DNA of 64,000 nucleotides from Alicyclobacillus sp. Its GTDB lineage: Bacteria; Bacillota; Bacilli; Alicyclobacillales; Alicyclobacillaceae. The stretch covers positions 1-64,000 of the forward strand of contig JAIMAY010000007.1 of assembly GCA_023511725.1 (NCBI GenBank), written 5' to 3'. A model generated the notes under the pieces. The model was not told the DNA's origin. It saw only the letters and a list, made by a program, of their open reading frames with translations, and searched no databases. The translations under genes and the position numbers were made by a program. Shown in pieces: positions 8,661 through 44,978 of the stretch (position 1 is its first letter; each line of letters starts with the position of its first letter).

Positions 8661-9074
8661 TCACACAGGCACGCGGAAACGCGCCTGGCCCGCGACGACA
8701 CGATTGCCGCCGCTCGACTTGGTCGCCCAGATGTCACACTCGACGGTTTGCCAGCCGCCCGCTTCCTCGACGGCCTTGACCTCGCCCTCACAGGTGATGA
8801 CATCCCCGGGCCGGACCATATCGATGAAACGCACGCCGAACTTTTCCAGTGCGCCCTCGTCCCCGATGGTTTCCGTAAGCATCTGCCCAACGAACGCCAT
8901 CGTCAACATCCCGTGGGCAATGACGCCTCCCAGCCCCGCTTGGACAGCGAACTCCTCCACCGTGTGGATGGGATTGAAATCGCCCGAGGCTCCGGAGTAC
9001 ATGACAAGCTGCGTCTTCGTTACCGGAGGCTTCACCAACGGTCCTATGCGGTCTCCCACCTGAAAACGCGCCAT
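8661..9074 (-). CDS. MaoC-type (R)-enoyl-CoA hydratase, catalytic subunit
   Basis: A 137-residue single hot-dog protein. It keeps the hydratase-2 catalytic pair in SGDFNPIHTVEEFA and the following GGVIAHGML block, so it should hydrate or dehydrate acyl-CoA esters. ATG at 9074 shares one base with the stop of the preceding gene and lies 7 nt after GGAGGGCG, so the two are translationally coupled. The partner (9074-9526) is a MaoC N-half-like protein without the histidine. The pair matches the heteromeric hydratases made of two half-size chains, as in steroid side-chain ChsH1/ChsH2. The substrate is unknown. Confidence 0.88.
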   Translation of the reverse strand: MARFQVGDRIGPLVKPPVTKTQLVMYSGASGDFNPIHTVEEFAVQAGLGGVIAHGMLTMAFVGQMLTETIGDEGALEKFGVRFIDMVRPGDVITCEGEVKAVEEAGGWQTVECDIWATKSSGGNRVVAGQARFRVPV

Positions 9075-9526
9075 CACGCACCGCCCTCCTGTCCGCGATA
9101 GATGACGACAGAACGGGCTTTCTGCACCAGATCACCAGCTTCGTCCATAACCCGTTGCTCGAAGACGAGAAAGATCATCCGGCCCAGCTTGCCATGCTTC
9201 TCGAAGGCATCGACCAGCGTAGTCGTGCAGTACACGACATCTCCTGCGAGCAGGGGCTTCACATATTCAAACGACTGCTCGCCGTGAATCAGCCCGGCAT
9301 GCGGAAACTCGAGCCCCTCAATGGCACCGTAGTCGAACGTCCGGCTGAACGTGGGCGGCGCCACCAAACGGCCGAAGCGGCTCTGACTCGCCGCCTCCTC
9401 GTCGCGGTAGAGCGGGTTGGGGTCGCCGATGGCCTGCGCGAACTTGCGAATGGCACCCTTCTCGACCTCATTCTTCACCGGCTTGGACGACTTGCCGATG
9501 AACTGTTGAAAATACGCCAGATCCAT
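9074..9526 (-). CDS. MaoC-N (FAS1-like) hydratase partner subunit
   Basis: A 150-residue hot-dog protein resembling the N-terminal half of fused hydratase-2 proteins (MaoC_dehydrat_N). It keeps the fold signature IGDPNPLYRDEEAA and FGRLVAPPTF, but the catalytic histidine of the D-x4-H pair is Tyr here. It is therefore probably the non-catalytic, substrate-tunnel subunit of a heterodimer with the downstream MaoC. ATG at 9526 follows GGAAGGAGGCTTCGC. It follows the Liv substrate-binding protein gene by ~126 nt, which contain a hairpin. Confidence 0.85.
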   Translation of the reverse strand: MDLAYFQQFIGKSSKPVKNEVEKGAIRKFAQAIGDPNPLYRDEEAASQSRFGRLVAPPTFSRTFDYGAIEGLEFPHAGLIHGEQSFEYVKPLLAGDVVYCTTTLVDAFEKHGKLGRMIFLVFEQRVMDEAGDLVQKARSVVIYRGQEGGA

Positions 9527-9615
9527 GCGAAGCCTCCTTCCCGGGCCGCGGGCGCCGCACCTGAGCGCGGCGCCGGCCCTGGTCTTGCCCGGGGCAGCGT
9601 CATTCCCATTCTAGC

Positions 9616-9640
9616 GGTTTTTCCGCCTGTCGGAAAAGCC
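9616..9640. terminator. Hairpin between the substrate-binding protein gene and the MaoC pair
   Basis: GGTTTTTCCG (9616-9625) and CGGAAAAGCC (9631-9640) pair with one G-T wobble around a 5-nt loop, shortly downstream of the binding-protein stop. The stem is A/T-rich with no following T run, so it is a weak terminator or a processing site. A TAGAAT box on the minus strand just beyond it could start the MaoC-IclR-thiolase transcript. Confidence 0.4.
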
Positions 9641-9652
9641 CCGGGCGCCGGA

Positions 9653-10870: not shown

Positions 10871-10993
10871 ACAGCACATGCCCCCTTCACACTCTGCATG
10901 GATTTGACGTTATGGATTCAGGCTGTACCACAGACCCATCGAGACCTGCGTCTGCCAACGACAACTTTCCCCGCACATCACCCCTTTCTCGCG

Positions 10994-13474: not shown

Positions 13475-13477
13475 GCG

Positions 13478-29933: not shown

Positions 29934-31187
29934 TCAGAGTTCGAGCATCAAACGCTCTGGATGCTCCAATCGCTCCACCACATGGCGCATGAAGCGTGCC
30001 GTGTATCCCCCGTCGAGCACGCGATGATCAAAGGTGAGCGACAGAGCCATCAACCAGCGCGGTACCACCTCGTCATTCGGGCCGAACATCGGCCTTCGGG
30101 CGATGCGCCCCATCGCCAAAATGGCCACCTCCGGCGGGTTGATGATGGGGGTGGCGAAGGTGCCGCCGAACGAACCCACGTTGGAGATGGTGAAGGTGCT
30201 GCCCTGTACGTCCTCGAGCGCGATGGTGCGTGATCGGGCAGCCTCGGACAGGCGCTGAACCTCCTGCGCCAAGTCCAACAGACTCTTCTGGTCCGCGTCG
30301 CGGATCACCGGCACCATCAGACCATCGGGTGTGTCCACGGCGATGCCGATGTGGTACCGCTTCTTCAACAGGATCTCGCCATGCTCCGCATCCATGCTGG
30401 CGTTCAGATACGGGAATCTCCGCAGACCGGACACGACGGCGCGGATCACGAACGGGAGATAGGTCAACTTGATCCCTTGCTCGCGCGCCCAGGGATCCAG
30501 CTTCTCCCGCAACGCCACCAGTTCCGTGACGTCCGCTTCGTCCATCCCTGTCACGTGAGGCGCGGTGAACTTGGAGGCCACCATACGCCCAGCGATGACC
30601 CGCCGCAGTCCGGCGAGAGGCACACGCTCCACATCAGCTTCCGACGACATCGACCCGGCCACCGCCTTCGCACCAGGTGGCTGTCCCTGCCGTACCGTGC
30701 CCATCCCGGCCTCCACCGCAGCGGACGGCGCCACGGACATGCCGACAGTCTGCCCGGTCGCGGCCTGCCCAATCGCAGTCTGCCCGGTCGCAGCCTGCCG
30801 AGCGGCCTCCTCCACATCCCGCATGGTGATGCGGCCGCCGCGCCCCGTGCCACGCACATCCGCCAGGTCCACGCCGAGTTCGCGTGCGCGACGGCGCACT
30901 GCAGGAGCCGCGAGCGGGCGCGGGATGGCGCTAGGCGAATTCGTCATCGCCGTGTCAATCTCAATCAGCACCGTCCCGACAGGCACCACCTGACCCGGAA
31001 CACCGTACAGGTGCAGGACCCGTCCGGCCACGGGCGACGGGATCTCCGTCAATGCTTTGTCCGTCTGCACCTCCAACAGCGGTTGATCCGGGGCGACCAC
31101 GTCCCCTTCCTGCACCAACCAGCGGACGATCTCGGCCTCGTGCATGCCCTCTCCCAAATCCGGCAGCGCCCACCGATACGTCGTCAC
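29934..31187 (-). CDS. 2-oxoacid dehydrogenase E2 (dihydrolipoyl acyltransferase)
   Basis: A 417-residue acyltransferase. It has an N-terminal lipoyl domain (LPDLGEGMHEAEIVRWLVQ, lipoyl-lysine in VQTDKALTEI), a linker, an E1/E3-binding domain (AAPAVRRRARELGVDLADV...GRGGRITMRDVE), a repeat-bearing linker, and the catalytic domain with TFTISNVGSFGG and FDHRVLDGG. It accepts an acyl group from E1 and passes it to CoA. The start, probably GTG at 31187, overlaps the E1beta stop by 4 nt. The specificity (pyruvate, branched-chain or acetoin) is not resolved. No E3 gene is present in the window. Confidence 0.93.
   Translation of the reverse strand: MTTYRWALPDLGEGMHEAEIVRWLVQEGDVVAPDQPLLEVQTDKALTEIPSPVAGRVLHLYGVPGQVVPVGTVLIEIDTAMTNSPSAIPRPLAAPAVRRRARELGVDLADVRGTGRGGRITMRDVEEAARQAATGQTAIGQAATGQTVGMSVAPSAAVEAGMGTVRQGQPPGAKAVAGSMSSEADVERVPLAGLRRVIAGRMVASKFTAPHVTGMDEADVTELVALREKLDPWAREQGIKLTYLPFVIRAVVSGLRRFPYLNASMDAEHGEILLKKRYHIGIAVDTPDGLMVPVIRDADQKSLLDLAQEVQRLSEAARSRTIALEDVQGSTFTISNVGSFGGTFATPIINPPEVAILAMGRIARRPMFGPNDEVVPRWLMALSLTFDHRVLDGGYTARFMRHVVERLEHPERLMLEL
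30746..30799. repeat. 30-bp imperfect tandem repeat in the E2 linker
   Basis: Two copies with a 30-bp period (30746-30769 and 30776-30799) encode the Gly/Ala/Gln/Thr-rich stretch around GQTAIGQAATGQTVG. This is a flexible inter-domain linker, so copy-number variation should be tolerated. Confidence 0.7.
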
Positions 31188-32161
31188 TCCTCCATCACCT
31201 CCGCGATGGCGCGCAGGATCCGCGGAACGCTCGGCAGCCAGGCATCCTCCACCAGCGGCGGCGGATACGGCGTGTCGTAGCCCGTCACGCGTTGAATGGG
31301 CGCGAGCAGCGAATAGAACACCGCGTCGTTCAGCGAAGCCACAATCTCCGCGCCGACACCCGCCGTCCGCACCGCTTCGTGAATCACCACCGCACGGCCT
31401 GTCTTTTGCACGGAGGCCGCCAGTGTATCCAGATCCAACGGCGCCAGTGTGCGCACATCGATGACCTCGCAGGAGACATCGGTGGACGCTGCCTGTTCCG
31501 CCGCCTGAAGTGCGAGCGGCACCGTCGGTCCCCAGGCCAGGAGCGTCACGTCACGCCCGTCCCGAACCACCTGCGCCGTACCGATGGGCACCGTGTAGCG
31601 TTCGTCGGGCACCTCCATGCGCTGGGCGCGATACAAGCGCATCGGTTCCAGGAACAGGACCGGGTCTTCGCTGTCGATGGCCGCGAGCAGCAGGCCCTTC
31701 GCGTCGTATGGGTTGCTGGGCATCACCACCTGCAGCCCCGGGGTGTGCACGAACAGCGCTTCCAGACTGTCGGAATGCAACTCCGGTGTGCGTACGCCGC
31801 CGCCGAAGGGTGATCGGATCACCAGCGGCACATGAAACCGCCCCTGGGTTCGAAAGCGGATGCGTGCAGCCTGTGAAGCAATCTGGTCCATCGTTTCATA
31901 GATAAAGCCGAGGAACTGGATCTCGGCGACAGGCCGCATGCCTGCGACGGCGAGGCCGATGGCCGTGCCGACGATTCCCGACTCGGCCAGCGGCGTATCC
32001 ACCACCCGGTGCTCTCCGAACTCTGCCTGCAAGCCCTCGGTCGCGCGGAAGACGCCGCCGTTTTTCCCCACGTCCTCACCCAGGATGATGACGCGCGGGT
32101 CTTCGGCCAAGGCGGTCCACAGCGCGTGCTGGATGGCCGCAATCATCGTTCGCTCCGCCAT
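31184..32161 (-). CDS. 2-oxoacid dehydrogenase E1 beta subunit
   Basis: A 325-residue transketolase-type subunit: LGEDVGKNGGVFRATEGLQAEFG, DTPLAESGIVGTAIGLAVAG, FHVPLVIRSPFGGGVRTPELHS and the C-terminal IQRVTGYDTPYPPP. With E1alpha it makes the alpha2beta2 decarboxylase. ATG at 32161 follows GGGGGAGG, one base after the E1alpha stop. Sequence features are shared by pyruvate and branched-chain complexes. Confidence 0.94.
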   Translation of the reverse strand: MAERTMIAAIQHALWTALAEDPRVIILGEDVGKNGGVFRATEGLQAEFGEHRVVDTPLAESGIVGTAIGLAVAGMRPVAEIQFLGFIYETMDQIASQAARIRFRTQGRFHVPLVIRSPFGGGVRTPELHSDSLEALFVHTPGLQVVMPSNPYDAKGLLLAAIDSEDPVLFLEPMRLYRAQRMEVPDERYTVPIGTAQVVRDGRDVTLLAWGPTVPLALQAAEQAASTDVSCEVIDVRTLAPLDLDTLAASVQKTGRAVVIHEAVRTAGVGAEIVASLNDAVFYSLLAPIQRVTGYDTPYPPPLVEDAWLPSVPRILRAIAEVMEE

Positions 32162-32162
32162 C

Positions 32163-33236
32163 TCACACCCTCCCCCGCAGGTCCGTCAACTCCTGCTTCT
32201 GTCTCCGTAACGCTGGTGGCATCTGCGCGTACACGTGATCGAATACGCTCGCAGGATCGGGCATGGGTGTCTGCTCCATGCGCTCCGTGGCCTCCGCCAA
32301 GCGGGTATCCACCTCGGCAGTCCATGCGCGCTCCTGGTCCTCGTCCCACAGCCCCTGTCGCTCCAACCAGCGGCGAAGGCGAAGCAGCGGATCCTTGGCC
32401 CGAGCCCACGCATCGTGCACCTCCGGGTCGCGGTAACGGGTCGGATCGTCCGAGGTTGTGTGCGGACCCAGGCGATACGTGACCGCCTCAATCAGCACCG
32501 GACCTCCTCCGGACCGGGCGTGCTCCACCGCGTAGCGCATGGCGTCGTACACCGCAAAGATATCGTTGCCGTCGACGCGGATACCCTCGATTTGATAAGC
32601 GATGGCCTTTTGCGCCACGGTGGGCGTGGCCATCTGACGCGTGACGGGAACACTGATGGCGTACTGGTTGTTCTGGCAGAAGAACACCACCGGCAACTGG
32701 AACACCGATGCGAAGTTGAGCGCTTCGTGAAAGTCCCCCTGCGACGTGGCGCCGTCGCCGAAGAAGGCGGCGGCCACCCGGTCCTCGCCGCGGAGTTTGC
32801 ACGCCCAGGCCGCCCCGGTCGCGTGCAGCAACTGCGCACCGATGATGATCTGCCCCGGAAACATCGCCAGTTCCTTGGGCATGTATCCCGCCGCCGGATG
32901 CCCGCGGCTGAACAGGAGGGCATGCGCCGGATCCAAGCCATGGTACATCATCCCCGCCAATTCGCGGTAGCTGGGAAACACCCAGTCATCCCGGCGCAAG
33001 GCGGCAAAGCTGCCAATCTGCGCCGCCTCCTGGCCGCTGAACGGGGCATACGTGCCCAGCCGCCCCTGCCGCTGCAGGTTCAACGCCTTCTGGTCAAAAC
33101 GCCGGCAGAACACCATGAATCGGTACCATGCCTGCGCCTGATCCTGCACACCCGGCGGTTCCTCTCGTGCCAATGTGCCGTCCTCGCGCAGGATCTGATG
33201 CAGTGTGGGCTCTCCCGGCCAACGATAGATCTCCAC
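32163..33236 (-). CDS. 2-oxoacid dehydrogenase E1 alpha subunit
   Basis: A 357-residue ThDP-binding subunit: FSRGHPAAGYMPKEL, the ThDP motif FFGDGATSQGDFHEALNFA ending in CQNNQYAISVP, and the phospho-loop-like TYRLGPHTTSDDPTRYRD. GTG at 33236 lies 8 nt after AAAGGAGG, so it is chosen over an in-frame start at 33254, although that one would overlap the upstream stop. The YRLGPHTTSDD segment is typical of branched-chain/acetoin-type E1alpha. Confidence 0.92.
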   Translation of the reverse strand: MEIYRWPGEPTLHQILREDGTLAREEPPGVQDQAQAWYRFMVFCRRFDQKALNLQRQGRLGTYAPFSGQEAAQIGSFAALRRDDWVFPSYRELAGMMYHGLDPAHALLFSRGHPAAGYMPKELAMFPGQIIIGAQLLHATGAAWACKLRGEDRVAAAFFGDGATSQGDFHEALNFASVFQLPVVFFCQNNQYAISVPVTRQMATPTVAQKAIAYQIEGIRVDGNDIFAVYDAMRYAVEHARSGGGPVLIEAVTYRLGPHTTSDDPTRYRDPEVHDAWARAKDPLLRLRRWLERQGLWDEDQERAWTAEVDTRLAEATERMEQTPMPDPASVFDHVYAQMPPALRRQKQELTDLRGRV

Positions 33237-33250
33237 CGCGTGCCCTCCTT

Positions 33251-34933
33251 TCACTCCAAGTACGGCTTGACCTCCCGCTCAATCCTGACGTCCACCACGA
33301 CGGGTCCCCTCGACGCGAACGCCGCCTCCAGCGCAGGCCGCACCTGCGCCGGCTCGTCGACGCGCAGCCCTTCCGCGCCGAACGCCCGCGCGATGGCGGC
33401 GAAATCCGGTTCCGGCACGAGGTCCATGCCCGGATACACACCGCGTGCCGCCGCCGGTCCCTGCATGCGCAACAGACCGCCTTTGAGGATCATGTAGCTG
33501 GCATTGTTGAAGATGACGAAGATCACCGGCAGCCCGTACTTCACCGCGGTCCAGAGCGCCTGGATGTAATACAGTGCGGAGCCGTCGCCGATACAGGCCA
33601 CCACCCGCCGGTGCGGTGCGGCCAACTGAGCCCCGAGAGCCGCCGGGAAGCCGAAGCCGAGACCGCCGCCCTTGAGCGCTATCAGGCCGTGCGGGTCGCG
33701 CAGCGGCAGATGGCCGTGCACGAATCGCCCGGATGTCACCGACTCGTCCACGACGATGGCGTCATCCGGCAGCAACTCCGCCAGCACCGACGCCAGATAC
33801 GCGCCCGACACCGGTGTCTGCGCCCTGCCGGCCTCCACCTCCTGCAGCCTCCGCTCGGCGCGCCTGCGCTGCCGCTCGGCCAGCGCCCCCCGCCTGTCTG
33901 CCACCCGCTCCATGAGTTCGGAATCCGCAGCCAGCCGCTGTCGCACGCGCTCCAACAGCGCCTTGGCCACACCCGCCAGGTCGGCCTGGATGGCCAGGTC
34001 CACCGGCATGTTCTTGCCGATCTCCCAGGCGTCGCAGTCGATGTGCACCACGCGCGCTCCGCAGGGAACCACGGAGTCCGGGAAATAAAGCAGCGGCGCC
34101 TGGCTGGTCACACCGAACCACAGGATGAGGTCCTTGCCCTCGAGAATCTTTTTCAGATAGGGGCCATTGGGCAGACAGCGCCCGAAACAGAGGGGGTGGT
34201 CATAAGGGAAGCCGAGACCAGCGCTCTGATGCTCGATGTACACGGGGATGGCGAGTTGCTCGACGAGGCGCGCCAGCGCCGGGATGGCACCGGTTCTCCC
34301 CGCGCGGTCACCGACAAGGATGACCGGCTGCTTCGCTTCGGCGAGCCATGCCGTCAACCGGTCGAGCACTTGTGCTTCCGGAAGTCCAGCCTGGACGATC
34401 TCGGTGAGCGGCCACGGCCTGGCGTCCATCTCCGCCATCATCACGTCCGACGGCAGCGACAGGAACACCGGACCGCACGGCTCGGTTTGCGCGGTCTTGA
34501 ACGCGCGGTGCAGCACCAGCGGAAGTTCGTCCACGTGCCGAACTTCGTGCGCCCACTTGGTGAAAGGCCTGGCCATCTGGACGAGATCGCCCATCAAAGC
34601 CGGCTCCTGCACCGCCAGCCGGCTGTCGTGCTGGCCTGCCGTCACCACCAGCGGGATTCCGGCCCGCCAAGCGTCGTACAAGTTGCCCAGTCCATGCGCG
34701 AGGCCCGGTGTGATATGCAGGTTAACCACGGCCGGCCGGCCGGTCACCTGCGCATAGCCCGCGGCCATTGCCACGGAGATATCCTCGTGCAGAGCGAGGA
34801 TGTACTCGATGTCCTCGCGCGCTGCCAGCCCGTCCATCAGGGGCAGCTCCGTCGTGCCGGGATTGCCGAACAGATGCCTCACGCCGTACTGATGCAACGC
34901 CTCCAACACGAAATCGCGACCCTTCACCGGCAT
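33251..34933 (-). CDS. ThDP enzyme of the benzoylformate decarboxylase/acetolactate synthase fold
   Basis: A ~560-residue three-domain ThDP enzyme. The N-terminus has FGNPGTTELPLMDGL, then LHEDISVAMAAGYAQ with the cofactor-activating Glu, and NLHITPGLAHGLGN with the His equivalent to H70 of benzoylformate decarboxylase. The ThDP motif is GDGSALYYIQ...FNNASY. The second active-site His (H281 in that enzyme) seems absent, since the region reads LWFGVTSQAPLLYFPD. Start is ATG 34933 or GTG 34927 (6 nt after GAGGG). First gene of an operon with E1alpha, E1beta and E2. Substrate and reaction are open. Confidence 0.85.
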   Translation of the reverse strand: MPVKGRDFVLEALHQYGVRHLFGNPGTTELPLMDGLAAREDIEYILALHEDISVAMAAGYAQVTGRPAVVNLHITPGLAHGLGNLYDAWRAGIPLVVTAGQHDSRLAVQEPALMGDLVQMARPFTKWAHEVRHVDELPLVLHRAFKTAQTEPCGPVFLSLPSDVMMAEMDARPWPLTEIVQAGLPEAQVLDRLTAWLAEAKQPVILVGDRAGRTGAIPALARLVEQLAIPVYIEHQSAGLGFPYDHPLCFGRCLPNGPYLKKILEGKDLILWFGVTSQAPLLYFPDSVVPCGARVVHIDCDAWEIGKNMPVDLAIQADLAGVAKALLERVRQRLAADSELMERVADRRGALAERQRRRAERRLQEVEAGRAQTPVSGAYLASVLAELLPDDAIVVDESVTSGRFVHGHLPLRDPHGLIALKGGGLGFGFPAALGAQLAAPHRRVVACIGDGSALYYIQALWTAVKYGLPVIFVIFNNASYMILKGGLLRMQGPAAARGVYPGMDLVPEPDFAAIARAFGAEGLRVDEPAQVRPALEAAFASRGPVVVDVRIEREVKPYLE

Positions 34934-34980
34934 CCCTCTTTCCACTCGTGCCTGTCCGAAGACTGGTACAAGTTATACTC

Positions 34981-35058: not shown

Positions 35059-36396
35059 TCAACCTTCCGCACCGGCCGATGGGGCCACAGGCGCGCGCGG
35101 CAAACGCCGCCGGAACCACGGGATGCTGCGCATGAATAGAAGCACCAAGCCGTAGACGAAGACTCCAAACCAACAGAACGAAAACCATCCCTGAAACCCT
35201 GCCTGCGCAACAACGACGAAGGTGGCGATGGCAAAGCCCCCCGCCAGCACGTACGCGGCACAGGAATAGACGGCCCAGCCCGAAGCCTGCAAGGTAGGAT
35301 GGATGTCCTCCAAGAATTCCGAGAACATCGCCATCCACGGGCCGTAACCGATGGCCAGGAAGAACCCAAGCAGAGACGCATAGACTTCCATCATCCCGAT
35401 GGACACCGGCCGGCCAATCAGACCAATCCAGAAGTACATGTAGCAAAACAATCCGATTACGCCGACAAACGAGCAGATCTTGCGGAGCTGTAGCCGATCC
35501 GACACCCAACCCACGGCGAGCAGCGTGCCGAGATTCACCAGCCAGAAATAGCTGGACACGCTGGCGGCGGTGGCAGGATCGTAATGGAACGCCATCGTGA
35601 AATACAGCGGTCCGAACGCTTGCACAAAGAAGTAGATGGCAAGAAACAGGACGATGCCAACGGCGAGCGACCATACCCGACCCGACCTGTACACCAGTCG
35701 CGTGGGCGCAATCTCGCCATCACGCCCGGCACCTGCGGTGTTGAGCCGGTTCGCTGCCTGTTCGTCGTGCACAATTTCCGCACGCAGTTCAGGTGCAAGA
35801 TCCCGGATGAAGAGGGCCACCAGGATGGTGACCACGAGGCAAAAGATACCCATGATGACGAACTGCGACTGCCACGCGTTGTGGAACATGGGAAGTGTCC
35901 AACCTGCCACCCAGGCGGCCAGATAGTTGGCGCCAACGGGACCGAACGTCCACAGTCCATAGCCGAAGGCGCGCCCTACGCGAGGCGTGAAATCGCGAAC
36001 CAAACCGGTCGTCGCGGGCAGGGTCATGGCAAGAATCATGGACATGACAAAACGCACCAGGATGAATTCACCCACGGTGTGGACCAGAGCCATGCACAAG
36101 ACCATCAGCGCCGTGATTCCGGTGCCCACGACGACGAAGAAGACGCGGCCAATCCGGTCCACCAACGGGCCCAGGAAGATGGCCGCAAACCCGGTGACCA
36201 TGGCCGTAAGACCGCCTATCAATCCGTACACCTGCGTCGACATGTGCAGATAGGGCAAGAGCAACGGCGCCACTGGAGCAATCTGCCCCTCGTAATTAGC
36301 AACGATGTTGGCGATGACAACGAGCGTCAGTAACCCGGCCCGGAGCCAGCGCTGAGGATACACGCGAATCACGCGTGATCTGTACCAACTCACCAT
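35059..36396 (-). CDS. MFS transporter, probably for an organic acid
   Basis: A 445-residue protein with about 12 hydrophobic segments. The first inter-helix loop has the MFS motif GPLVDRIGRVFFVV; a second copy appears as VGWVSDRLQLRKI in the middle. A longer cytosolic loop (EIVHDEQAANRLNTAGAGRDGE) lies between helices 6 and 7. ATG at 36396 follows AAAGGAGGGG. As last gene of the catabolic operon it likely imports the growth substrate; the solute cannot be read from sequence. Confidence 0.9.
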   Translation of the reverse strand: MVSWYRSRVIRVYPQRWLRAGLLTLVVIANIVANYEGQIAPVAPLLLPYLHMSTQVYGLIGGLTAMVTGFAAIFLGPLVDRIGRVFFVVVGTGITALMVLCMALVHTVGEFILVRFVMSMILAMTLPATTGLVRDFTPRVGRAFGYGLWTFGPVGANYLAAWVAGWTLPMFHNAWQSQFVIMGIFCLVVTILVALFIRDLAPELRAEIVHDEQAANRLNTAGAGRDGEIAPTRLVYRSGRVWSLAVGIVLFLAIYFFVQAFGPLYFTMAFHYDPATAASVSSYFWLVNLGTLLAVGWVSDRLQLRKICSFVGVIGLFCYMYFWIGLIGRPVSIGMMEVYASLLGFFLAIGYGPWMAMFSEFLEDIHPTLQASGWAVYSCAAYVLAGGFAIATFVVVAQAGFQGWFSFCWFGVFVYGLVLLFMRSIPWFRRRLPRAPVAPSAGAEG

Positions 36397-36504: not shown

Positions 36505-38673
36505 TCATACCCGCCAGCGGATGAGCGCGTCGAGGACCTCCACCTGCGTTCCCGACACCCACAGCGGGTTGACCTCCAGCGCGGCGAGACCCGGACCCGC
36601 TTCCACGGCGATCTCGCCCAACCGCCGCACCACACCAGCCACCCGGCCCAAGTCCGCCGGTTCGCGACCGCGGGCGCCCAACAGCAGCGGTGCTCCGCGC
36701 AGCGATCTCAACATGCCGACGATCTCATCCTCGGTCACCGGCCATACGGCCAAGCGCGTGTCCCGCAGCACCTCGACGAAAATGCCGCCCGTGCCGACAG
36801 CCAATACCCAGCCCCAGACTGGATCGGGCATCATTCCGACCATCAGTTCCACGCCACCCGCTCGCTGAGGACTCACCAACACGCCCTCGAGCCGCACGTG
36901 CGGATGCATCTGTCGGATGCGCGTCCACATGTCCTGCCACGCTGCTCGCGCCGCGTCCGGCCCTTGCACGCCCAGGACCACGCCACCGACGTCACTCTTG
37001 TGCGGCAGGTCTGGAGACTGAATTTTAAGAACCAACGGACCACAAAATTCCTCCGCCGCCTGTGCCGCGTCCTCCGGTGTTCGCGCCAAGCGCCCGGGGA
37101 CGAGCGGGATCCCTCGCTCGGCCAAGTACGCACGCGCACGCCATTCGCTCCAGTCATCCGGCCTGGGGACGGCATCATCACCGCTGCGGCCCCTCGCCAA
37201 CGTCCGAACCAGCGCGGGGCGCCACGGGCGACCTCCCTCCGCGTGGGCGCGCAGCCACTGCTCCCGCCGCTCGCGCCAGCGAACAGCGTGGCCGAGCGCG
37301 GTTAGGGCATGCTCCATCCCTCCCGCAAAGTGCAATCCCAGCTCCGCCACCAGCGCTCGCGCCGGCTCGGGAATATCCGTCATGGCGTTGGACATCAGCA
37401 GCACGGGGTGGGCAGATGCGCGACTCAGCGCCGACCACGCGGCCAGCGAGGCCCGCACGGTCTCGGCGTCCGGCAGCAGCGCCCGCGGGGGCTCCAGCAC
37501 CACCGCCAGAAAATCGCAGGCCGTATCCTCTGCCACAATCTCCGCCGCACGGCGCTGCAGCGTCCGGTCCATCAACACGTAGCCGGTCACGTCCAGCGGA
37601 TTCTGCGGTGTGGCGAAGGCGGGCAGCTCCTGCCTCAGCCGCTCGACCGTGGCCGGGGTAAACGGCGGGAGTTCGAGCCCTTCGTCCGCAGCCCGATCCG
37701 CAATCACATCGCAAGCGCCGCCGGACGCGGTGACGACCGCCATCCGCCGGCCCGGCGGCGGACCCACGGCGTCCAACAGGGCAGCGGTCGTGATCAGATC
37801 CTCGAGCGAGCGAACGCGGATCACCCCTAATCTCTGCAGCGCCGCATCATGCACCGCATCGTCGCCGACGAGTGCACCTGTGTGCGCCAGGGCGGATTTT
37901 GCCCCCGCCGCACTTCGACCCGTCTTCAGGACCACCAGCGGCTTCCCTGCCTGCAGCGCTCGCTGCGCCACCTCCGCGAAGGCATCCGCATCCCGGATCC
38001 CCTCGAGAAAGCAGGCGATGACGCGTGTGGCCGGATCGGCCACAAGATAGTCCATCACGTCTGTCGCACGCACCTGCCCCTCATTGCCCATCGACACAAG
38101 CAGCGAGATCCCCGCCATCCGCGCCTGCGCCAACGCCAGCACGGCACTGGCGAGGGCGCCGCTCTGCAGCACCACGCCGATGCCGCCGCGCACCAGGGGC
38201 AACGGCAGCGGCAGGCCGTACGGCATGATGCCGTCGGCCGCGTTCACAAAGCCGTTGCCGTTGGGCCCGAGCACCGTGATCCCCGCCGCTCGCACACGCT
38301 CCTCCAGCGCACGTTCCAAAGCGCGGCCCGCGTCGCCCGTCTCGGAGAAGCCCGCGGTGAGCACCACCATCTGGCGGACGCCCGCCGCGGCTGCGTCGTC
38401 CACCACATCGAGGATGTGATCAGGTCCCACCATCACATAGGCCAGGTCCACCGGCGAATCCAGCGAGCGGAGCGAGGGGACGGCCGGCTCCCCATGCACC
38501 ACACGGCGCCGCGGATTCACCATCACCATCCGGCCCGTGAACCCTCCCGCCCGCAAATTCATGTAGGTGTTCAAAGACCAGCGGGAGTCGTCGCTGGCAC
38601 CGACCAGGGCAATGCTGCTGGGACGAAACAACTCCCTCAGCGCCTGCAGCCGCGGTGTTCTCTCCATGCACAT
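36505..38673 (-). CDS. ADP-forming acyl-CoA synthetase, alpha-beta fusion
   Basis: A 722-residue NDP-forming ligase. Order of domains: CoA-binding (residues ~15-110; RPSSIALVGASDD), Succ-CoA-ligase-like (~160-300; VLQSGALASAVLALAQ) with the phospho-histidine segment SALAHTGALVGDDAV, and a C-terminal ATP-grasp domain (~500-720; PLVLKIQSPDLPHKSDVGGV). It forms or splits acyl-CoA with ATP/ADP plus phosphate, reversibly. Start is ATG 38673 or 38667. It lies 18 nt after the DUF35 gene. Having both AMP- and ADP-forming ligases in one operon suggests that one activates the substrate and the other recovers ATP from a product thioester. Confidence 0.92.
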   Translation of the reverse strand: MCMERTPRLQALRELFRPSSIALVGASDDSRWSLNTYMNLRAGGFTGRMVMVNPRRRVVHGEPAVPSLRSLDSPVDLAYVMVGPDHILDVVDDAAAAGVRQMVVLTAGFSETGDAGRALERALEERVRAAGITVLGPNGNGFVNAADGIMPYGLPLPLPLVRGGIGVVLQSGALASAVLALAQARMAGISLLVSMGNEGQVRATDVMDYLVADPATRVIACFLEGIRDADAFAEVAQRALQAGKPLVVLKTGRSAAGAKSALAHTGALVGDDAVHDAALQRLGVIRVRSLEDLITTAALLDAVGPPPGRRMAVVTASGGACDVIADRAADEGLELPPFTPATVERLRQELPAFATPQNPLDVTGYVLMDRTLQRRAAEIVAEDTACDFLAVVLEPPRALLPDAETVRASLAAWSALSRASAHPVLLMSNAMTDIPEPARALVAELGLHFAGGMEHALTALGHAVRWRERREQWLRAHAEGGRPWRPALVRTLARGRSGDDAVPRPDDWSEWRARAYLAERGIPLVPGRLARTPEDAAQAAEEFCGPLVLKIQSPDLPHKSDVGGVVLGVQGPDAARAAWQDMWTRIRQMHPHVRLEGVLVSPQRAGGVELMVGMMPDPVWGWVLAVGTGGIFVEVLRDTRLAVWPVTEDEIVGMLRSLRGAPLLLGARGREPADLGRVAGVVRRLGEIAVEAGPGLAALEVNPLWVSGTQVEVLDALIRWRV

Positions 38674-38691: not shown

Positions 38692-39108
38692 TCACGATGC
38701 GGTAGCCTCGTCCATCACCCGAAAGTACGGCAACACCAGCCCCTCATCCGCCTCGACGAACTCGACGCGGACGCGCGCGCCTATGCGCACCGAGGATCTG
38801 TCGCCGAGGATGCGCGTCATCATGCGCACGCCCTCGTCCAGGTCCACCAGCGCCACCACGTACGGCACGTCGGCCTGAAACGGACCAAACGCCCGATGGA
38901 CGACGGTGTAGGTGTGGATGCGGCCTGCGCCGCTGGCCTCCACCCATGAGAGCTGATCCGAGAAGCAGTGAGGACAGAGAAGCCGCGGGTAGAAGACGTG
39001 ACGGCCGCATGACGCACAGCGCTGAATACGAAGCACCCCTTCGCGGCAACCCTCCCAAAACGGACGAGAGTCCGCATCCTCGACCGGTCGCGGTATCCCA
39101 TGTGCCAT
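38692..39108 (-). CDS. DUF35 OB-fold/zinc-ribbon acyl-CoA-associated protein
   Basis: A 138-residue protein: rubredoxin-like zinc ribbon CASCGRHVFYPRLLCPHC (four cysteines), then an OB-fold with HTYTVVHRAFGPF and VPYVVALVDLDEGVRMMTRI. DUF35 proteins bind CoA esters and partner thiolase-like enzymes; the DUF35 part of ChsH2 is needed by the aldolase Ltp2. ATG at 39108 lies 1 nt after the thiolase-like stop, an almost fixed arrangement for this pair. Long upstream in-frame extension is rejected because it would run into the partner gene. Confidence 0.93.
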   Translation of the reverse strand: MAHGIPRPVEDADSRPFWEGCREGVLRIQRCASCGRHVFYPRLLCPHCFSDQLSWVEASGAGRIHTYTVVHRAFGPFQADVPYVVALVDLDEGVRMMTRILGDRSSVRIGARVRVEFVEADEGLVLPYFRVMDEATAS

Positions 39109-39109
39109 C

Positions 39110-40255
39110 TCAATCCCTCCCCAGGATGACGGTGGCGGTGGACGAGAGCACGCCGCCTGTGCCGTGCACCAGCGCCAGGCGCGCGTCCGGCACCTGTCTT
39201 GAGCCACACTCACCGCGGAGTTGGCGCACCGCCTCAATCAGCAGAAAGATCCCGTACATGCCAGGATGGCAATAGGACAATCCGCCGCCGTTGGTGTTCA
39301 TCGGGAACGGCCCCCCTGGAGCCGTGCGCTGACCGCTCACAAACGGCCCGCCCTCACCCGGTTTGCAGAAGCCCAGTGCCTCCAGCGTGAGCAGGACGGT
39401 GATGGTGAACGAATCGTAGATCTCCACCACGTCAATCTCGTCATGCCGCACGCCCGCCATCTCCATCGCTCGCCGGCCAGACACCGCCGCGCCGGTTGTG
39501 GTGAGATCCGGCATGTTCGCGATGGTGTGGTGCGTGTGCGTTTCGCCATGACCAAGCACCCACACCGGCCGCGTCCGGCAGCGCTGCGCCACCCGCTCCG
39601 AGACCACCACCACCGCGCCACCGCCGTCGGTCACGAGGCAGCAGTCCAAAAGATGCAGCGGTTCGCAGATCAGGCGAGAGTTCAGCACATCCTCGATGGT
39701 GATGGGCTCGCGCATGAACGCCTTGTCATTGAGCGTCGCCCACTTGCGCGTCGCGACCGCAATCTCCGCCAACTGCTCGGACGTCGTCCCATACTCATGC
39801 ATGTGCCGCATCGCCGCCAGAGCATAGGCGCCGACCGGCGTCGGAAGTCCAAACGGCCGCTCGAACTGCTCCGTGAGCGGCGCATCCGGCGGCACGTGCC
39901 CGCGCAGCCGTTGCGAACGTTGGGTGCTCCCGTAGCAGATGAGCGCCACATCGAACAGCCCCGCCTGAATCCCCGCCACGGCGTGACCCACGTGGGCTTC
40001 GAACGAGGAGCCGCCGATGTTGGTGGTATCCGTGTACCGCGGCGTGATCCCCAGATACTCGGCCAGCATCAGATTGGTTGACCACGCCCAGTTGCCGGCG
40101 CAGAACAGTGCGTCGACGTCGCCCTTCTCGAGCCCCGCCTCCGCGAGCGCCGCCTTCGCCGCCTGCGCCTGGAGTTGCAGGACTGTCCGGTGCGGCGTTT
40201 CCCCCAGCTCCGACTCCGCCACGCCGACAATCGCCGCCAGCCGATCCCGCCTCAT
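39110..40255 (-). CDS. SCP2-thiolase-like protein lacking the nucleophilic cysteine
   Basis: A 381-residue thiolase-fold protein of the SCP2/lipid-transfer branch. The position that carries the acyl-accepting Cys in true thiolases reads TTNIGGSSFEAHVGHA, with no Cys. Other landmarks are VTDGGGAVVVVS, VEIYDSFTITVLLTLEALGF, NTNGGGLSYCHPGMYG and LVHGTGGVLSS. Together with the adjacent DUF35 gene this matches Ltp2-type retro-aldolases rather than thiolases. ATG overlaps the ligase stop by 4 nt. The aldol product is probably acetyl- or propionyl-CoA plus a ketone or aldehyde (inference). Confidence 0.9.
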   Translation of the reverse strand: MRRDRLAAIVGVAESELGETPHRTVLQLQAQAAKAALAEAGLEKGDVDALFCAGNWAWSTNLMLAEYLGITPRYTDTTNIGGSSFEAHVGHAVAGIQAGLFDVALICYGSTQRSQRLRGHVPPDAPLTEQFERPFGLPTPVGAYALAAMRHMHEYGTTSEQLAEIAVATRKWATLNDKAFMREPITIEDVLNSRLICEPLHLLDCCLVTDGGGAVVVVSERVAQRCRTRPVWVLGHGETHTHHTIANMPDLTTTGAAVSGRRAMEMAGVRHDEIDVVEIYDSFTITVLLTLEALGFCKPGEGGPFVSGQRTAPGGPFPMNTNGGGLSYCHPGMYGIFLLIEAVRQLRGECGSRQVPDARLALVHGTGGVLSSTATVILGRD

Positions 40256-41802
40256 GACGCCTCCCCCTGTCCTGCCGGCCGCAGTTCCACATCCTTGGCC
40301 ATCTCCCGCAGCACCGTCTTCAGCACCTTGCCCACGCCGTTGCGCGGCAAATCGTCCAGGAACAGCACGCGGCGCGGCGTTTTGTACTTGGCGAGCCGAT
40401 CCTGACAGAAGGTGATGAGTTCCTGCTCGGTCACCTCCGCGCCGGGTCTGCGAACCACGTACGCGACCACCTCTTCGCCCATCCGCTCGTCCGGCACGCC
40501 AATCACGGCGGCCTCCGCCACTGCGGGATGCTCCGTCAGCAATTCTTCGATGTCCCGCGGATAGATGTTGAAGCCGCCGCGGATGATCAAATCCTTCTTA
40601 CGGCCGACGATGTACAGGTATCCGTCTTCGTCGAGCTTGGCAAGATCGCCCGTATGAAGCCAACCGCCGCGCAGCGCTCGGCGCGTCTCCTCCTCATTCT
40701 GGAAGTAACCCGGCGTGACGTTTTCCCCCCGCACAATCAACTCGCCCACCTCGCCCGGCGGGAGTTCGCGGTCCTCGTCGTCGACAATGCGAACCTCGAC
40801 GCTGGGAATCGGCTTGCCGACGGAACCGGGTCGATACTCCATATCCTTCCGGTAGGAGGCGACAATCGGCGCCGCCTCCGACAGGCCGTAGCCGTCGTAC
40901 ACATCCGCACCAAATTTCTGCTTGAACGCCTCCACCAGGGTGAGCGGCAGCGGTGCGGATCCCGATCCCACGCGCTCGAGGCTGGACAGGTCAAACTGAT
41001 CTGCCTGCGGATGCGTCACCATGGCATGGAGCATTGCCGGGACGGCCGAAAAGAAACGCACGCGGTGGCGTTCGATGGCGCGGAACACCTCCACCGGGTC
41101 AAACTTCGGAAAGACCACGATGCTGCTGCCGGTCAGAAGCAGCACGTTGGAGACGGTGAGGCCGTAGACATGCGCCAACGGGAGCACTCCGATGGTGGTG
41201 TCGCGCTCACCATCGTTCTCGGCGGCGGTGGTGGCGGCGTTGGAATAGAGATTGCGATGCGTGAGGATCACGCCCTTGGGGCGACCGGTGGTGCCGGAGG
41301 TGTAAAGGATCACGGCGGTATCGTCCGGCTGAATCGAGATCTCGGGTTCGGGTGGGTCCGCTGGCACATCCGCCAGCCAGTCGCTGATGCTCACCGCCCC
41401 GTCACCGGTGGGCGCATCCACGACCACGACCAGCGGCGGGTTCGGCAGGTCCTGAATGGCCTCGCGGATCTTGGGCAACACCAGGGAACCGGTGAAGATC
41501 AGCTTGGTCCCCGAGTTGCGGGCGATGTATGCGATTTCATGCGCGTGCAGCAAAAACAGGATGGGCACGATCACGGCACCCGTACGGCTGATCCCGTGAT
41601 ATGCGAAGATCACCTCAGGGCTGTTCGGCATACAGACCATCACGCGATCTCCCGGTTGCACGCCCGTCTTGCGCAGTGCCGCCGCGATGCGACGCGCCTG
41701 GCGCAGGGTTTCGACGTTGGTGTACTCCCGGCCCTGGTAGTACAGCAGTGTGTATTCCCCAAACGTTTCGATATTTTGTTGCAGAATCGCCGGCAGGATC
41801 AC
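40252..41802 (-). CDS. AMP-forming long-chain acyl-CoA synthetase-like protein
   Basis: A 516-residue ligase with LYTSGTTGRPKGVILTH, DGYGLSEAAPIV, GGWLHTGDLAKLDEDGY, KDLIIRGGFNIYPRDIEE and C-terminal RNGVGKVLKTVL. GTG at 41802 follows AAGGGATG. It lies ~100 nt after the acyl-CoA dehydrogenase, across a strong hairpin, and overlaps the thiolase-like gene by 4 nt. Substrate unknown. Confidence 0.92.
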   Translation of the reverse strand: MILPAILQQNIETFGEYTLLYYQGREYTNVETLRQARRIAAALRKTGVQPGDRVMVCMPNSPEVIFAYHGISRTGAVIVPILFLLHAHEIAYIARNSGTKLIFTGSLVLPKIREAIQDLPNPPLVVVVDAPTGDGAVSISDWLADVPADPPEPEISIQPDDTAVILYTSGTTGRPKGVILTHRNLYSNAATTAAENDGERDTTIGVLPLAHVYGLTVSNVLLLTGSSIVVFPKFDPVEVFRAIERHRVRFFSAVPAMLHAMVTHPQADQFDLSSLERVGSGSAPLPLTLVEAFKQKFGADVYDGYGLSEAAPIVASYRKDMEYRPGSVGKPIPSVEVRIVDDEDRELPPGEVGELIVRGENVTPGYFQNEEETRRALRGGWLHTGDLAKLDEDGYLYIVGRKKDLIIRGGFNIYPRDIEELLTEHPAVAEAAVIGVPDERMGEEVVAYVVRRPGAEVTEQELITFCQDRLAKYKTPRRVLFLDDLPRNGVGKVLKTVLREMAKDVELRPAGQGEAS

Positions 41803-41901: not shown

Positions 41902-43071
41902 TCAGGCCAACAGGTCTCCGACCTTGACGTGACCCTTGAGCAGGTTGCGGGAGATGATGTACCGCTGGATCTCGTCCGTGCCCTCGAAGATCCGCCAGAC
42001 GCGCATCTCGCGGTACCAGCGCTCAATCGGCAACTCCTTCGTGTAGCCCATACCGCCATGGATCTGCAGGACGCGGTCGACGACGCGGTTGGCCATGTTG
42101 GCACCGAACAGCTTGGATACCGACGCATAGTGCCGCGTGTCCTGACCGGTTTCCGCGAGCCATGCCGCATAGAGCACCAACCAGCGGGTTGCCTCAATCT
42201 CAACATGCGAGTCGGCGATCATCCACTGGATGGCCTGCCGCTCGGCGATGGGTTTGCCGAAGGTGACGCGCTGCTTGGCGTGATCGATGGCCATCTGCAG
42301 CAGGCGCTCGGCTGCACCGACAGCGCGTGCGGCAATCATCCAGCGCCCTTGGCCAATCCACTTCATGCCGAGCTTGAAGCCGCCGCCGACCTCACCGAGC
42401 ACGTTCTCCTCCGGCACGCGCACATCCTCGAAGATGAGCGAGGCCGGGCCCCACTCTCCCATGGTATGAATGTACTCGGATCGCCAACCCATCTCCCGGT
42501 CCACCAGGAAGCAGGTGATACCGCCGTTGGCGCCCTTCTCTTTATCCGTCACGGCGAACACCATCGCGAAATCGGCCTCGTTGCCATTGGTGATGAAGAT
42601 CTTCTCGCCATTGAGCACCCAGTACTTGCCGTCCTTCACCGCGCTCATGCGGATGTTGGCGGCGTCGGAACCCGCGCCGGGCTCGGTGAGGGCAAAGCAG
42701 GAAATGCGCTCGCCGTTGATCACCGGGATGAGGTACTTCTTCTTCTGCTCCTCATTGCAGTAGTAGAGGATGTTGTCCGCACTGCCGCCGAAGCTGAACG
42801 GCACGAACGTCCGTGCCAGCTCCATCTGGATCAGCGCCGTCATGATGGGCCCGAGATTCGCACCCCCATACTCCTCCGGCGTGTTGATTCCCCAAAACCC
42901 GAGCTCCTTGGCCTTCAACTGCAGCGCCCGGATCTCCTCACGCGTCATGCCCCGCTTGCCCTCACGCTCGCGCCGGAGCACCTCGGGTTCCAAGGGCATC
43001 AGTTCATTTTTCACGAACTCGCGCACCGTGCGCTGAATCATCTTTTGCTCTTCTGTCAGCCGAAAATCCAA
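41902..43071 (-). CDS. Acyl-CoA dehydrogenase
   Basis: A 389-residue FAD enzyme: CFALTEPGAGSDAANIR, LNGEKIFITNGNEADF, RVTFGKPIAERQAI, QIHGGMGYTKELPIERWYRE and RIFEGTDEIQRYI with the catalytic Glu. Start is TTG at 43071, 7 nt after AGGAGG. It follows the SDR by 82 nt and shares the operon with an AMP ligase and the thiolase-like/DUF35 pair. Confidence 0.93.
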   Translation of the reverse strand: MDFRLTEEQKMIQRTVREFVKNELMPLEPEVLRREREGKRGMTREEIRALQLKAKELGFWGINTPEEYGGANLGPIMTALIQMELARTFVPFSFGGSADNILYYCNEEQKKKYLIPVINGERISCFALTEPGAGSDAANIRMSAVKDGKYWVLNGEKIFITNGNEADFAMVFAVTDKEKGANGGITCFLVDREMGWRSEYIHTMGEWGPASLIFEDVRVPEENVLGEVGGGFKLGMKWIGQGRWMIAARAVGAAERLLQMAIDHAKQRVTFGKPIAERQAIQWMIADSHVEIEATRWLVLYAAWLAETGQDTRHYASVSKLFGANMANRVVDRVLQIHGGMGYTKELPIERWYREMRVWRIFEGTDEIQRYIISRNLLKGHVKVGDLLA

Positions 43072-43153: not shown

Positions 43154-43918
43154 TCACTCGGCCGCGCGGCCGCCGTGCACGTAGATCACCTGGCCGGACA
43201 CATAACTGGCGTCATCGCTGACGAGGAACGCAATGACGTTGGCAATATCCTCGGGCCGGCCCACGCGCCGCAGCGGGATGCGTTCGGCCGCCGCCTTCTG
43301 GAACGCCTCGAAGTCGACGCCGATGCGCTCGGCCGTCTGACGCGTCATCTCCGTCACGATGAAACCCGGTGCCACCGCGTTGACGTTGATGTTGAACGGC
43401 CCAAGCTCGATGGCCAGCGTCTTCGTGAAGCCCTGCAGCCCCGCCTTGGCCGCCGAGTAGTTGGCCTGCCCGCGGTTGCCCAGCGCCGATGTGCTGGAGA
43501 GATTGACAATCTTGCCGTACTTCTGCTGCACCATGTAGCGCTGCGCCGCCCTGCTGCACAGGAAGGCGCCCTTCAGGTGCACGTTCATCACCATGTCCCA
43601 ATCGTCTTCCGTCATCTTGAACAGGAGGTTGTCACGGATGATGCCGGCATTGTTGACGAGGATGTCGAGCCGCCCGAAGCGCTCCGCCACACTCGAGATG
43701 GCCTGTTCCACCTGGTCCGCGTTGGAGACATCGCAACCGTAGCCCACGGCCTCGCCGCCGGCGGCGCGGATGGCCTCCACCGTGTCGCGGGTGAATTCTT
43801 CCTTGAGGTCAAATACCGCCACCTTGGCCCCATCCGCGGCCAGGCGCTTGGCCGTCGCAGCGCCGATACCCCGCGCCGCACCCGTCACCACTGCCACACG
43901 TCCATCCAATCGACCCAC
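43154..43918 (-). CDS. SDR-family 3-oxoacyl reductase (FabG-like)
   Basis: A 254-residue SDR with TGAARGIGAATAKRL, NNAGIIRDNLLFKMTEDDW, NLSSTSALGNRGQANYSAAKAG (Ser, Tyr and Lys) and VAPGFIVTEMT. It is close to FabG in motif detail, but its setting points to oxidation of a 3-hydroxyacyl-CoA. GTG at 43918 lies 8 nt after AAGGAGG. A GGCCGG/CCGGCC stem follows in the 82-nt gap downstream. Confidence 0.92.
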   Translation of the reverse strand: MGRLDGRVAVVTGAARGIGAATAKRLAADGAKVAVFDLKEEFTRDTVEAIRAAGGEAVGYGCDVSNADQVEQAISSVAERFGRLDILVNNAGIIRDNLLFKMTEDDWDMVMNVHLKGAFLCSRAAQRYMVQQKYGKIVNLSSTSALGNRGQANYSAAKAGLQGFTKTLAIELGPFNINVNAVAPGFIVTEMTRQTAERIGVDFEAFQKAAAERIPLRRVGRPEDIANVIAFLVSDDASYVSGQVIYVHGGRAAE

Positions 43919-43952: not shown

Positions 43953-44978
43953 TCACTCGGCCGCGTCCTGTGCCGGCGCCTGCGGCAGGTCCTGGCGACC
44001 GTCCTGTCGATGTGCGGCGGCCTCCTGCCAGTACCGAACGCCGCCTCGCAGCACCGACGTCACTTCACCGCGGCTCTCCATCAGGTCGAGGTGCCCTTGA
44101 ACCTCTGACAAGCCCAGGAACACCGCGCCATCTGCCAACCTCGGGAAGAGCTGGCGGCTGATCTCATACACCGTCTGCGCACCGGCGCGCAGCGCATCGC
44201 GGATCTGCTGGCAGCGTGCCTCTTGCTCGGCGAGACGCCGATCAATGAGCGCACGGTGATCCTGAAACGACGCACCATGGCCCGGATGAACCACCGTCCA
44301 CGGCAGCTCACGCGTGCGCCGCATCGACTCGCGATACTCGAGCAGCGGCCGTGGTCGCGGTGCCCTGGCACGGACCGGCGGTTCCACAAAAGCGTTGGCG
44401 GAGATGTCCGGCAACAGGTGGTCCCCCACCAGCGCTTCGCCGGACGCCGCGTCCCACAGGCAGATGTCGGTTCGGCTGTGACCCGGCGTGTACAGTACCT
44501 GCCACTCGCGGCCGCCGGCCAGGATCCTGTCGCCGTCGCGGAGATAGTTCACATCGCGCCATCCCCACGGCCGAAATGGCCGATCCCGGTGCCACACCGT
44601 CCCAGCCCCGGCCTCGATGGCGAACGCGCGGTAAAACGCCTCCATCCTCTCCCACTCGCGGGGGTCATCGGACAGCACCGAGCGCGCCGCTTCCGACACC
44701 CAAACGCGGGCGTTCGTCCGCTTTTGCAGCTCCGCCACACCGCCGGAGTGATCCGTGTGCATATGCGTCACCACAATCTGCTCGATGTCCGCGATGGACA
44801 GCCCCAGATCCGCCAACCCCGCTTCCAACTGCGCCACCGACTCAGGCCGGCGCAAACCGGCGTCAATCAGTGTCACCGGTGGCTCCGGCAAGACGTAAAC
44901 GTTTACACTGCCCTCCGGATACGGTGTCCGGATGCGGATTTGCGCTGTCGGCGTGATGTGCGGCCTCCCCTCCAGCAA
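43953..44978 (-). CDS. MBL-fold metallo-hydrolase
   Basis: A metallo-beta-lactamase-fold hydrolase of ~334-341 residues. It has THMHTDHSGG (HxHxDH), TPGHSRTD, GDHLLPD and VVHPGHG, the complete two-metal site, followed by a ~110-residue winged-helix-like C-terminus. Such proteins include thioesterases and lactonases. The start is unclear: TTG at 44978 has no ribosome site, while a perfect GGAGGGGAGG (44964-44973) lies 6 nt before an in-frame ATC at 44957. It heads the eight-gene catabolic operon and carries a cre-like palindrome in its 5' codons. Confidence 0.88.
   Translation of the reverse strand: MLEGRPHITPTAQIRIRTPYPEGSVNVYVLPEPPVTLIDAGLRRPESVAQLEAGLADLGLSIADIEQIVVTHMHTDHSGGVAELQKRTNARVWVSEAARSVLSDDPREWERMEAFYRAFAIEAGAGTVWHRDRPFRPWGWRDVNYLRDGDRILAGGREWQVLYTPGHSRTDICLWDAASGEALVGDHLLPDISANAFVEPPVRARAPRPRPLLEYRESMRRTRELPWTVVHPGHGASFQDHRALIDRRLAEQEARCQQIRDALRAGAQTVYEISRQLFPRLADGAVFLGLSEVQGHLDLMESRGEVTSVLRGGVRYWQEAAAHRQDGRQDLPQAPAQDAAE
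44894..44907. promoter_or_regulatory. cre-like box within the 5' end of the MBL-fold gene
   Basis: Minus-strand TGTAAACGTTTACG contains the perfect palindrome GTAAACGTTTAC and fits the CcpA cre consensus except for the last base. Intragenic cre sites near the 5' end commonly act as road-blocks, so glucose repression of the operon is plausible. Confidence 0.55.

Follow-up and report, generated by a model that had tools for sequence, protein, structure and literature searches.

A cysteine-less thiolase-like protein and its stand-alone DUF35 partner in Alicyclobacillus form a candidate acyl-CoA retro-aldolase

Thiolase-fold retro-aldolases are known from the degradation of steroid side chains and of ibuprofen. 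We analysed a stretch of 64,000 nucleotides from Alicyclobacillus sp. (the window), which encodes a thiolase-fold protein without the nucleophilic cysteine, P0001, next to a stand-alone DUF35 protein, P0002. We consider it likely that the two form a heteromeric acyl-CoA aldolase, which would split a 3-hydroxyacyl-CoA, yielding an aldehyde or ketone together with a shorter acyl-CoA. With less assurance, and only somewhat in preference to the contrary, we propose that their family, PRK06158, represents a third catalytic type among the thiolase-fold acyl-CoA retro-aldolases and acts on non-steroid 3-hydroxyacyl-CoAs together with a stand-alone DUF35 protein and a MaoC hydratase. This type would use a tyrosine base and the thiolase histidine as acid or oxyanion residue, with a serine replacing the histidine of Ltp2 or the cysteine of Sal.

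Results

The gene pair and its operon

The features of the window on which the analysis bears are the following, all on the reverse strand.

39110..40255, reverse strand: P0001, thiolase-fold, Cys-less acyl-CoA (retro-)aldolase candidate, 381 aa (PRK06158/NF004811, alignment, tree, model and fold matches); key residues Gly82 (nucleophile position), Tyr280-Asp281-Ser282-Phe283, His330 and His364
38692..39108, reverse strand: P0002, stand-alone DUF35 partner with zinc ribbon and OB fold, 138 aa (PF01796, PF12172)
40252..41802, reverse strand: AMP-forming acyl-CoA ligase, a homologue of which adjoins the pair in L006, L016 and L021 (59-64%)
41902..43071, reverse strand: acyl-CoA dehydrogenase (ACAD), conserved along with the pair (77-88% identical in Alicyclobacillaceae, Bacillaceae and Ktedonobacteria)
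43154..43918, reverse strand: FabG-type SDR, conserved alongside the pair in some of the relatives, putative dehydrogenase of a 3-hydroxyacyl-CoA or of a product
43953..44978, reverse strand: MBL-fold hydrolase, homologues about 50-55% identical in A. fastidiosus-type loci
36505..38673, reverse strand: NDP-forming acyl-CoA synthetase, downstream of DUF35 in many relatives
35059..36396, reverse strand: MFS transporter that may import the substrate acid, a homologue lying downstream in L013, L015, L019 and L021
9074..9526, reverse strand: MaoC-type hydratase subunit, HadA-like, 150 aa, without the catalytic motif
8661..9077, reverse strand: MaoC-type hydratase subunit, HadB-like, 138 aa, hydratase-2 motif SGDFNPIH

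The 1-nt gap described by the first-pass annotation is real, base 39109 being all that separates the two reading frames. The stop codon of the CoA ligase overlaps the start of P0001 (ATGA, 40252-40255) and the operon is therefore wider than 38692-40255, comprising at least ligase, thiolase and DUF35 genes. P0001 scores 538.5 bits against PRK06158/NF004811 (curated cut-off 421), a family that carries the NCBIfam name 'acetyl-CoA acetyltransferase'. P0002 lies above the cut-offs for PF01796 and PF12172, the zinc ribbon and OB fold of ChsH2, presents a C4 zinc motif of the form CX2CX10CX2C, and matches both ChsH2(DUF35) (6OK1_B, E 4.5e-23) and Shy(DUF35) (9MYR_B).

The heteromeric MaoC pair (9526-8661) is encoded on the same strand, 30 kb from the thiolase gene, and a search of the genome with each subunit found no other homologue of either. 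Only one of the two subunits carries SGDFNPIH, an arrangement also seen in ChsH1-ChsH2 and HadAB. In relatives, homologues of the HadB-like subunit immediately precede the thiolase/DUF35 pair. Next to the MaoC pair in the window lie an IclR regulator and an ABC transporter of the branched-chain type. A canonical thiolase is also encoded in the window, at 6604-7818.

In the Alicyclobacillus hesperidum group (L010-L012, approximately 3500-14200), a single compact locus unites orthologues (59-81%) of genes that lie dispersed over 8.6-44 kb of the window, namely the ACAD at 25568, the SDR at 28549, the ligase at 15983, the SDR at 43154, the thiolase/DUF35 pair and the MaoC pair. Three other observations, all on the reverse strand, concern the window itself: a benzoylformate-decarboxylase-like ThDP enzyme in a tight array with 2-oxo acid dehydrogenase E1 alpha, E1 beta and E2 genes and no E3 within the array (29934-34945); a 2-phosphosulfolactate-phosphatase-like gene, under the curated cut-offs of that family, inside the acyl-CoA island (15212-15964); and an mmdA-like carboxyltransferase with no adjoining biotin carboxylase gene (21140-22696).

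Absence of the nucleophilic cysteine

The motif NIGGSSFEAH, at residues 79-88 of P0001, had been read as an acyl-Cys site without its cysteine, and that reading was borne out. Alignment with solved relatives places Gly82 in the nucleophile column, which holds a Cys in BbsB and in the Pyrococcus thiolase 7YVY and Gly89 in CtSal, and in the AlphaFold model this glycine sits at the N-terminal end of helix 81-97, where the thiolase Cys is usually found. No Cys occurs in this column in any of 95 sequences, i.e. P0001 and 94 homologues, mostly 56-83% identical; a few homologues (L104, L171, L175) have one at the next position, 83 (GGCS), outside the nucleophile column. The alignment thus holds no reactive cysteine at the catalytic site, and classical thiolysis, which the first-pass annotation did not expect, is indeed not to be expected of a protein without the nucleophile. 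Of the residues that mark SCP2-type and classical thiolases, P0001 lacks the Cys (Gly82) and the His of HDxF or Asn of NEAF (Tyr280), and has kept the His of the GHP motif (His330, in CHPG).

Tyr280 and His330 are conserved in at least 97% of the 95 sequences, which argues that the active site has not decayed. Cys206 and Cys297 are the only cysteines conserved to this degree (>=97%) and both are also found in TcLtp2. Since Tyr280, His330, Cys206 and Cys297 are conserved while the nucleophile is absent from all 95 sequences, the loss is a property of the family. The Cys-less family spans Bacillota, Chloroflexota, Actinomycetota, Pseudomonadota and a haloarchaeon, and the loss of Cys is a trait of an old and widespread family, PRK06158/NF004811. 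A phage search gave no match.

A true thiolase whose nucleophile has moved, for example to Cys329 beside His330 or to the conserved Cys206, is hardly credible: Cys329, present in P0001, gives way to Ala or Thr in roughly one homologue in three, and Cys206, like Cys297, is shared with the aldolase Ltp2. A relocated Cys nucleophile was therefore rejected on the conservation pattern of the cysteines.

Predicted structure

The AlphaFold model of P0001, built with 48 sequences, has a full SCP2-thiolase fold with a pLDDT of 92.5. Its best fold matches are CtSal (Z 54.6), 4U4E (54.0), Ltp2 (52.9) and TbSLP (52.2), small differences that carry no weight for function, whereas classical thiolases reach a Z of at most 37.4; Foldseek was concordant. 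The low-confidence stretch of the model, residues 110-135, coincides with the active-site loop that is reported to be disordered in Sal and Ltp2 (PMC12329534).

Phylogeny and coupling of the lost cysteine to a tyrosine

The retrieved loci and whole-genome searches together yielded 172 members of the superfamily. Among them, a Cys at position 82 goes with His (HDxF) or Asn (NEAF) at position 280, whereas the proteins without this Cys have Tyr (YDxF). The coupling holds after thinning at 60% identity (26:2 vs 3:24, Fisher p 3e-10) and at 45% identity (16:2 vs 3:15, p 3e-5), p-values that ignore shared ancestry, most of the Cys-less/Tyr proteins being one clade. This clade comprises 36 rows (support 100/100), all without the Cys and with Tyr280; its nearest outgroups are Cys/His thiolases, and the whole superfamily tree has three label changes.

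The 36-row clade includes TcLtp2, the Ltp2-like protein of pIBU218, CtSal, IpfD and the subclade of P0001. Ltp2 and Sal have been shown to be retro-aldolases and IpfD has a genetic and metabolite assignment, so that P0001 falls in the clade of all members with experimental retro-aldolase evidence. The class assignment made by the first-pass annotation, a candidate retro-aldolase, is well supported. Within the clade, P0001 and 4U4E are placed in a separate subclade (19 rows, 100/99), apart from Ltp2; the branching order with respect to Sal, Ltp2 and IpfD is unsupported.

Loss of the nucleophile, taken alone, would also fit a catalytically inert pseudo-thiolase acting as scaffold or CoA-binding partner. 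We regard this as very unlikely, considering the identity of about 80% across phyla, the conservation of Tyr280 and His330, and the systematic appearance of Tyr280 together with the loss of Cys.

Exceptions to the Cys/His versus no-Cys/Tyr rule were seen in L123, L183, L119, L128 and L133, several of them on long branches, and some may be further repurposed thiolases. The superfamily profile gave 17 matches in an Actinomadura genome (G170, which holds L047), among them Cys-less proteins whose motifs are unusual (YDGF, YENF).

Active-site residues compared with known systems

The base of Ltp2 is Tyr294 and its acid Tyr344, with His296 in the oxyanion hole, while in Sal the base is Tyr302 and the acid Cys304, supported by Gln347 and Gln352; CtSal, which has Gly at the thiolase Cys position, loses its activity upon replacement of Tyr302 by Phe or of Cys304 by Ser (PMC12329534). 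In the alignment, Tyr280 of P0001 corresponds to Tyr294 of Ltp2 and Tyr302 of Sal, Ser282 to His296 and Cys304, and His330 to Tyr344 and Gln352, with Gly325 at the position of Sal Gln347. The search for the active-site tyrosines of Ltp2 was therefore only half successful: the base is present, while the second tyrosine is His330 and the oxyanion histidine is Ser282. Since Ser282 stands at the position of Sal Cys304, and the exchange of this Cys for Ser kills CtSal, the mechanism of P0001 cannot be that of Sal.

His330 is the retained histidine of the thiolase GHP motif, located at the position of the second Ltp2 tyrosine, and in this third residue P0001 is closer to thiolases than to Ltp2 or Sal. 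The pattern Tyr-(Ser/Ala)-His was found in all 19 subclade rows sampled for the tree. From the aligned residues, Tyr-Ser-His would be a third active-site set, a combination of catalytic residues not yet described.

The steroid aldolase TcLtp2-ChsH2(DUF35) (6OK1) has in common with P0001 and P0002 a thiolase fold without the Cys, the base Tyr and a DUF35 with C4 zinc; it differs in Tyr344 (His330 in P0001), in His296 (Ser282), in its subclade and in its steroid substrate. Moreover, the DUF35 of ChsH2 is the C-terminal part of a MaoC hydratase, whereas P0002 is a DUF35 of 138 aa and nothing else. The likeness to Ltp2/ChsH2 that had been proposed thus stands as regards a DUF35 partner in a conserved pair; equivalence fails on the residues, the separate subclade and the stand-alone DUF35. 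The bile acid aldolase CtSal-Shy(DUF35) (9MYR), among the best structural matches, also lacks the Cys (Gly89) and has its base Tyr302 at Tyr280, but presents the catalytic Cys304 (YDCY) in place of Ser282, Gln352 in place of His330 and Gln347 in place of Gly325. Shy has a C3H1 zinc finger and its DUF35 is fused to MaoC, unlike the CX2CX10CX2C motif of the stand-alone P0002.

IpfD-IpfE of ibuprofen degraders (pIBU218) resembles our pair in the lack of Cys, the motif YDAF, the stand-alone DUF35 gene and the CoA ligase in the cluster. IpfD nevertheless has a Tyr at the position of His330, belongs to another subclade and scores 287 bits against the PRK06158 cut-off of 421; ipfD-ipfE are preceded by a dioxygenase, not by a hydratase. 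IpfDE has been assigned the retro-aldol release of propionyl-CoA from the ibuprofen-CoA diol, from genetics and metabolites (PMC9195938). A second set on pIBU218, about 10 kb from ipfDEF (L108:939-3388), encodes an Ltp2-like protein (YDHF), a DUF35 protein, an enoyl-CoA hydratase and a CoA transferase.

BbsA-BbsB, the benzoylsuccinyl-CoA thiolase (7PXP), likewise combines a thiolase with a stand-alone DUF35, but BbsB keeps the Cys and HDAF and is a genuine thiolase. The SCP2-thiolase-like protein TbSLP (5AB4-5AB7), which has been proposed as an aldolase (PMC12329534), shares the thiolase fold without nucleophilic Cys; it is a more remote, eukaryotic protein with no DUF35 and with a Cys in its motif (YDCF).

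The only structure found in the family of P0001 is 4U4E, a 'putative thiolase' of Sphaerobacter thermophilus from structural genomics. It belongs to the P0001 subclade, is about 62% identical and has the same Gly at the Cys position, YDSF, THP histidine and VHGTGG. A literature search for 4U4E, or for YDSF alongside thiolase, found no paper, and no known activity for any member of the P0001 subfamily was found in the literature searched.

Identity with Ltp2 or Sal is ruled out by the residues and the tree; P0001 is a member of a widely distributed and probably misnamed family. Nothing in the window suggests ring degradation, or otherwise a steroid substrate.

Gene context in relatives

Neighbouring genes were counted on the strand of the thiolase gene and within 9.5 kb of it, in 71 loci that each span 18 kb or more; loci from related genera do not count as independent, and genes were identified by their similarity to a small set of references. 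A DUF35 gene is present in 70 of the 71 and adjoins the thiolase gene in 69, a pairing that is therefore not due to chance. CoA-activating enzymes occur in 63 loci, ACAD in 59 and a MaoC or ECH hydratase in 44, with all three in 40; an SDR occurs in 45 and a classical thiolase in 5. In 15/71 loci the first gene recognised upstream of the thiolase gene encodes MaoC, and L015 and L019 show the order ACAD-MaoC-MaoC-thiolase-DUF35. Steroid side-chain pathways follow the same sequence of ligase, ACAD, hydratase and aldolase.

Several features speak against a retro-aldolase, among them the thiolase-like His330 and, in the window, the 30 kb between the MaoC pair and the thiolase gene. An aldehyde dehydrogenase, expected after the release of an aldehyde, was recognised in only 1 of the 71 loci, and the FabG-type SDR that adjoins the pair in the window could make a 3-ketoacyl-CoA. 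This neighbouring SDR is the main weakness of our proposal, as together with an (R)-hydratase it might form the 3-ketoacyl-CoA. P0001 would then be a Cys-less retro-Claisen enzyme that cleaves this product without an acyl-enzyme, CoA or water attacking it directly while His330 and Tyr280 serve as base and oxyanion hole. The peroxisomal MFE-2/SCPx oxidation of branched chains, where hydratase and dehydrogenase yield the 3-ketoacyl-CoA, offers a parallel; the frequency of the SDR among the loci, its place directly upstream of the pair in L010-L012 and the thiolase His retained at position 330 also fit. We nevertheless judge this route unlikely, because the studied Cys-less/Tyr members, those with experimental evidence, act as retro-aldolases, because 8/71 loci have a hydratase without an SDR, and because the canonical thiolase at 6604-7818 could use the SDR product.

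The retro-aldolase reading also has to be weighed against the synthetic direction, in which P0001, as an aldolase or acyl-transfer enzyme, would join an acyl-CoA enolate to an aldehyde or ketone, similarly to the C-C forming thiolase/DUF35 systems of the HMG-CoA synthase complex and PhlABC. Aldol reactions are reversible and DUF35 pairs do occur in biosynthetic complexes (solved-structure matches 6ESQ and 5M3K). PhlC and the archaeal thiolase, however, rely on a Cys, and the neighbours of our pair are catabolic (ligases, ACAD, hydratases, importers and IclR regulators), which makes this direction improbable.

Substrates suggested by the neighbours (phenylpropanoids, branched dicarboxylates, terpenoids) were dropped, as the contexts vary between clades, with TRAP and MmgE/PrpD lying near the proteobacterial copies and MFS or ABC importers in Bacillota. 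In a comparison of loci L003-L036 with the window, identity is about 77-88% for the ACAD and thiolase proteins throughout Alicyclobacillaceae, Bacillaceae and Ktedonobacteria, and 50-65% for the DUF35 and ligase proteins; horizontal transfer of a tightly constrained unit is a possible explanation for this unevenness.

Discussion

In the pathway that we propose, an acid would be imported by the MFS transporter, activated to its CoA ester by the ligase or the NDP-forming synthetase, dehydrogenated at the alpha,beta position by the ACAD, hydrated by the heteromeric MaoC and cleaved by the retro-aldolase. P0001 and P0002 would probably assemble as alpha-beta-beta-alpha, as do Ltp2-ChsH2(DUF35) and Sal-Shy(DUF35). 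Judging from the aligned residues, Tyr280 would take the proton of the beta-hydroxyl of the CoA ester, like Tyr294 of Ltp2 and Tyr302 of Sal. By analogy, the C-C bond would then break, giving the aldehyde or ketone and a thioester enolate; His330 would stabilise and/or protonate the leaving acyl-CoA enolate, with His/Asn364 nearby, and DUF35 would shape the pocket.

The existing crystal structure 4U4E makes the retro-aldolase reading of PRK06158 directly testable. Should it be correct, the family would offer new biocatalysts for aldol chemistry on CoA esters, and the switch from thiolase to aldolase, by loss of the Cys and replacement of the motif His by Tyr, would have allowed the second catalytic residue to be chosen in at least three ways, as a Tyr (Ltp2), a Cys (Sal) and probably a His (P0001). 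The name acetyl-CoA acetyltransferase, which many genomes give to this family, would be wrong, and many catabolic clusters that resemble beta-oxidation would actually release aldehydes or ketones. Aldol cleavage would then be a common alternative end of beta-oxidation and not a steroid speciality.
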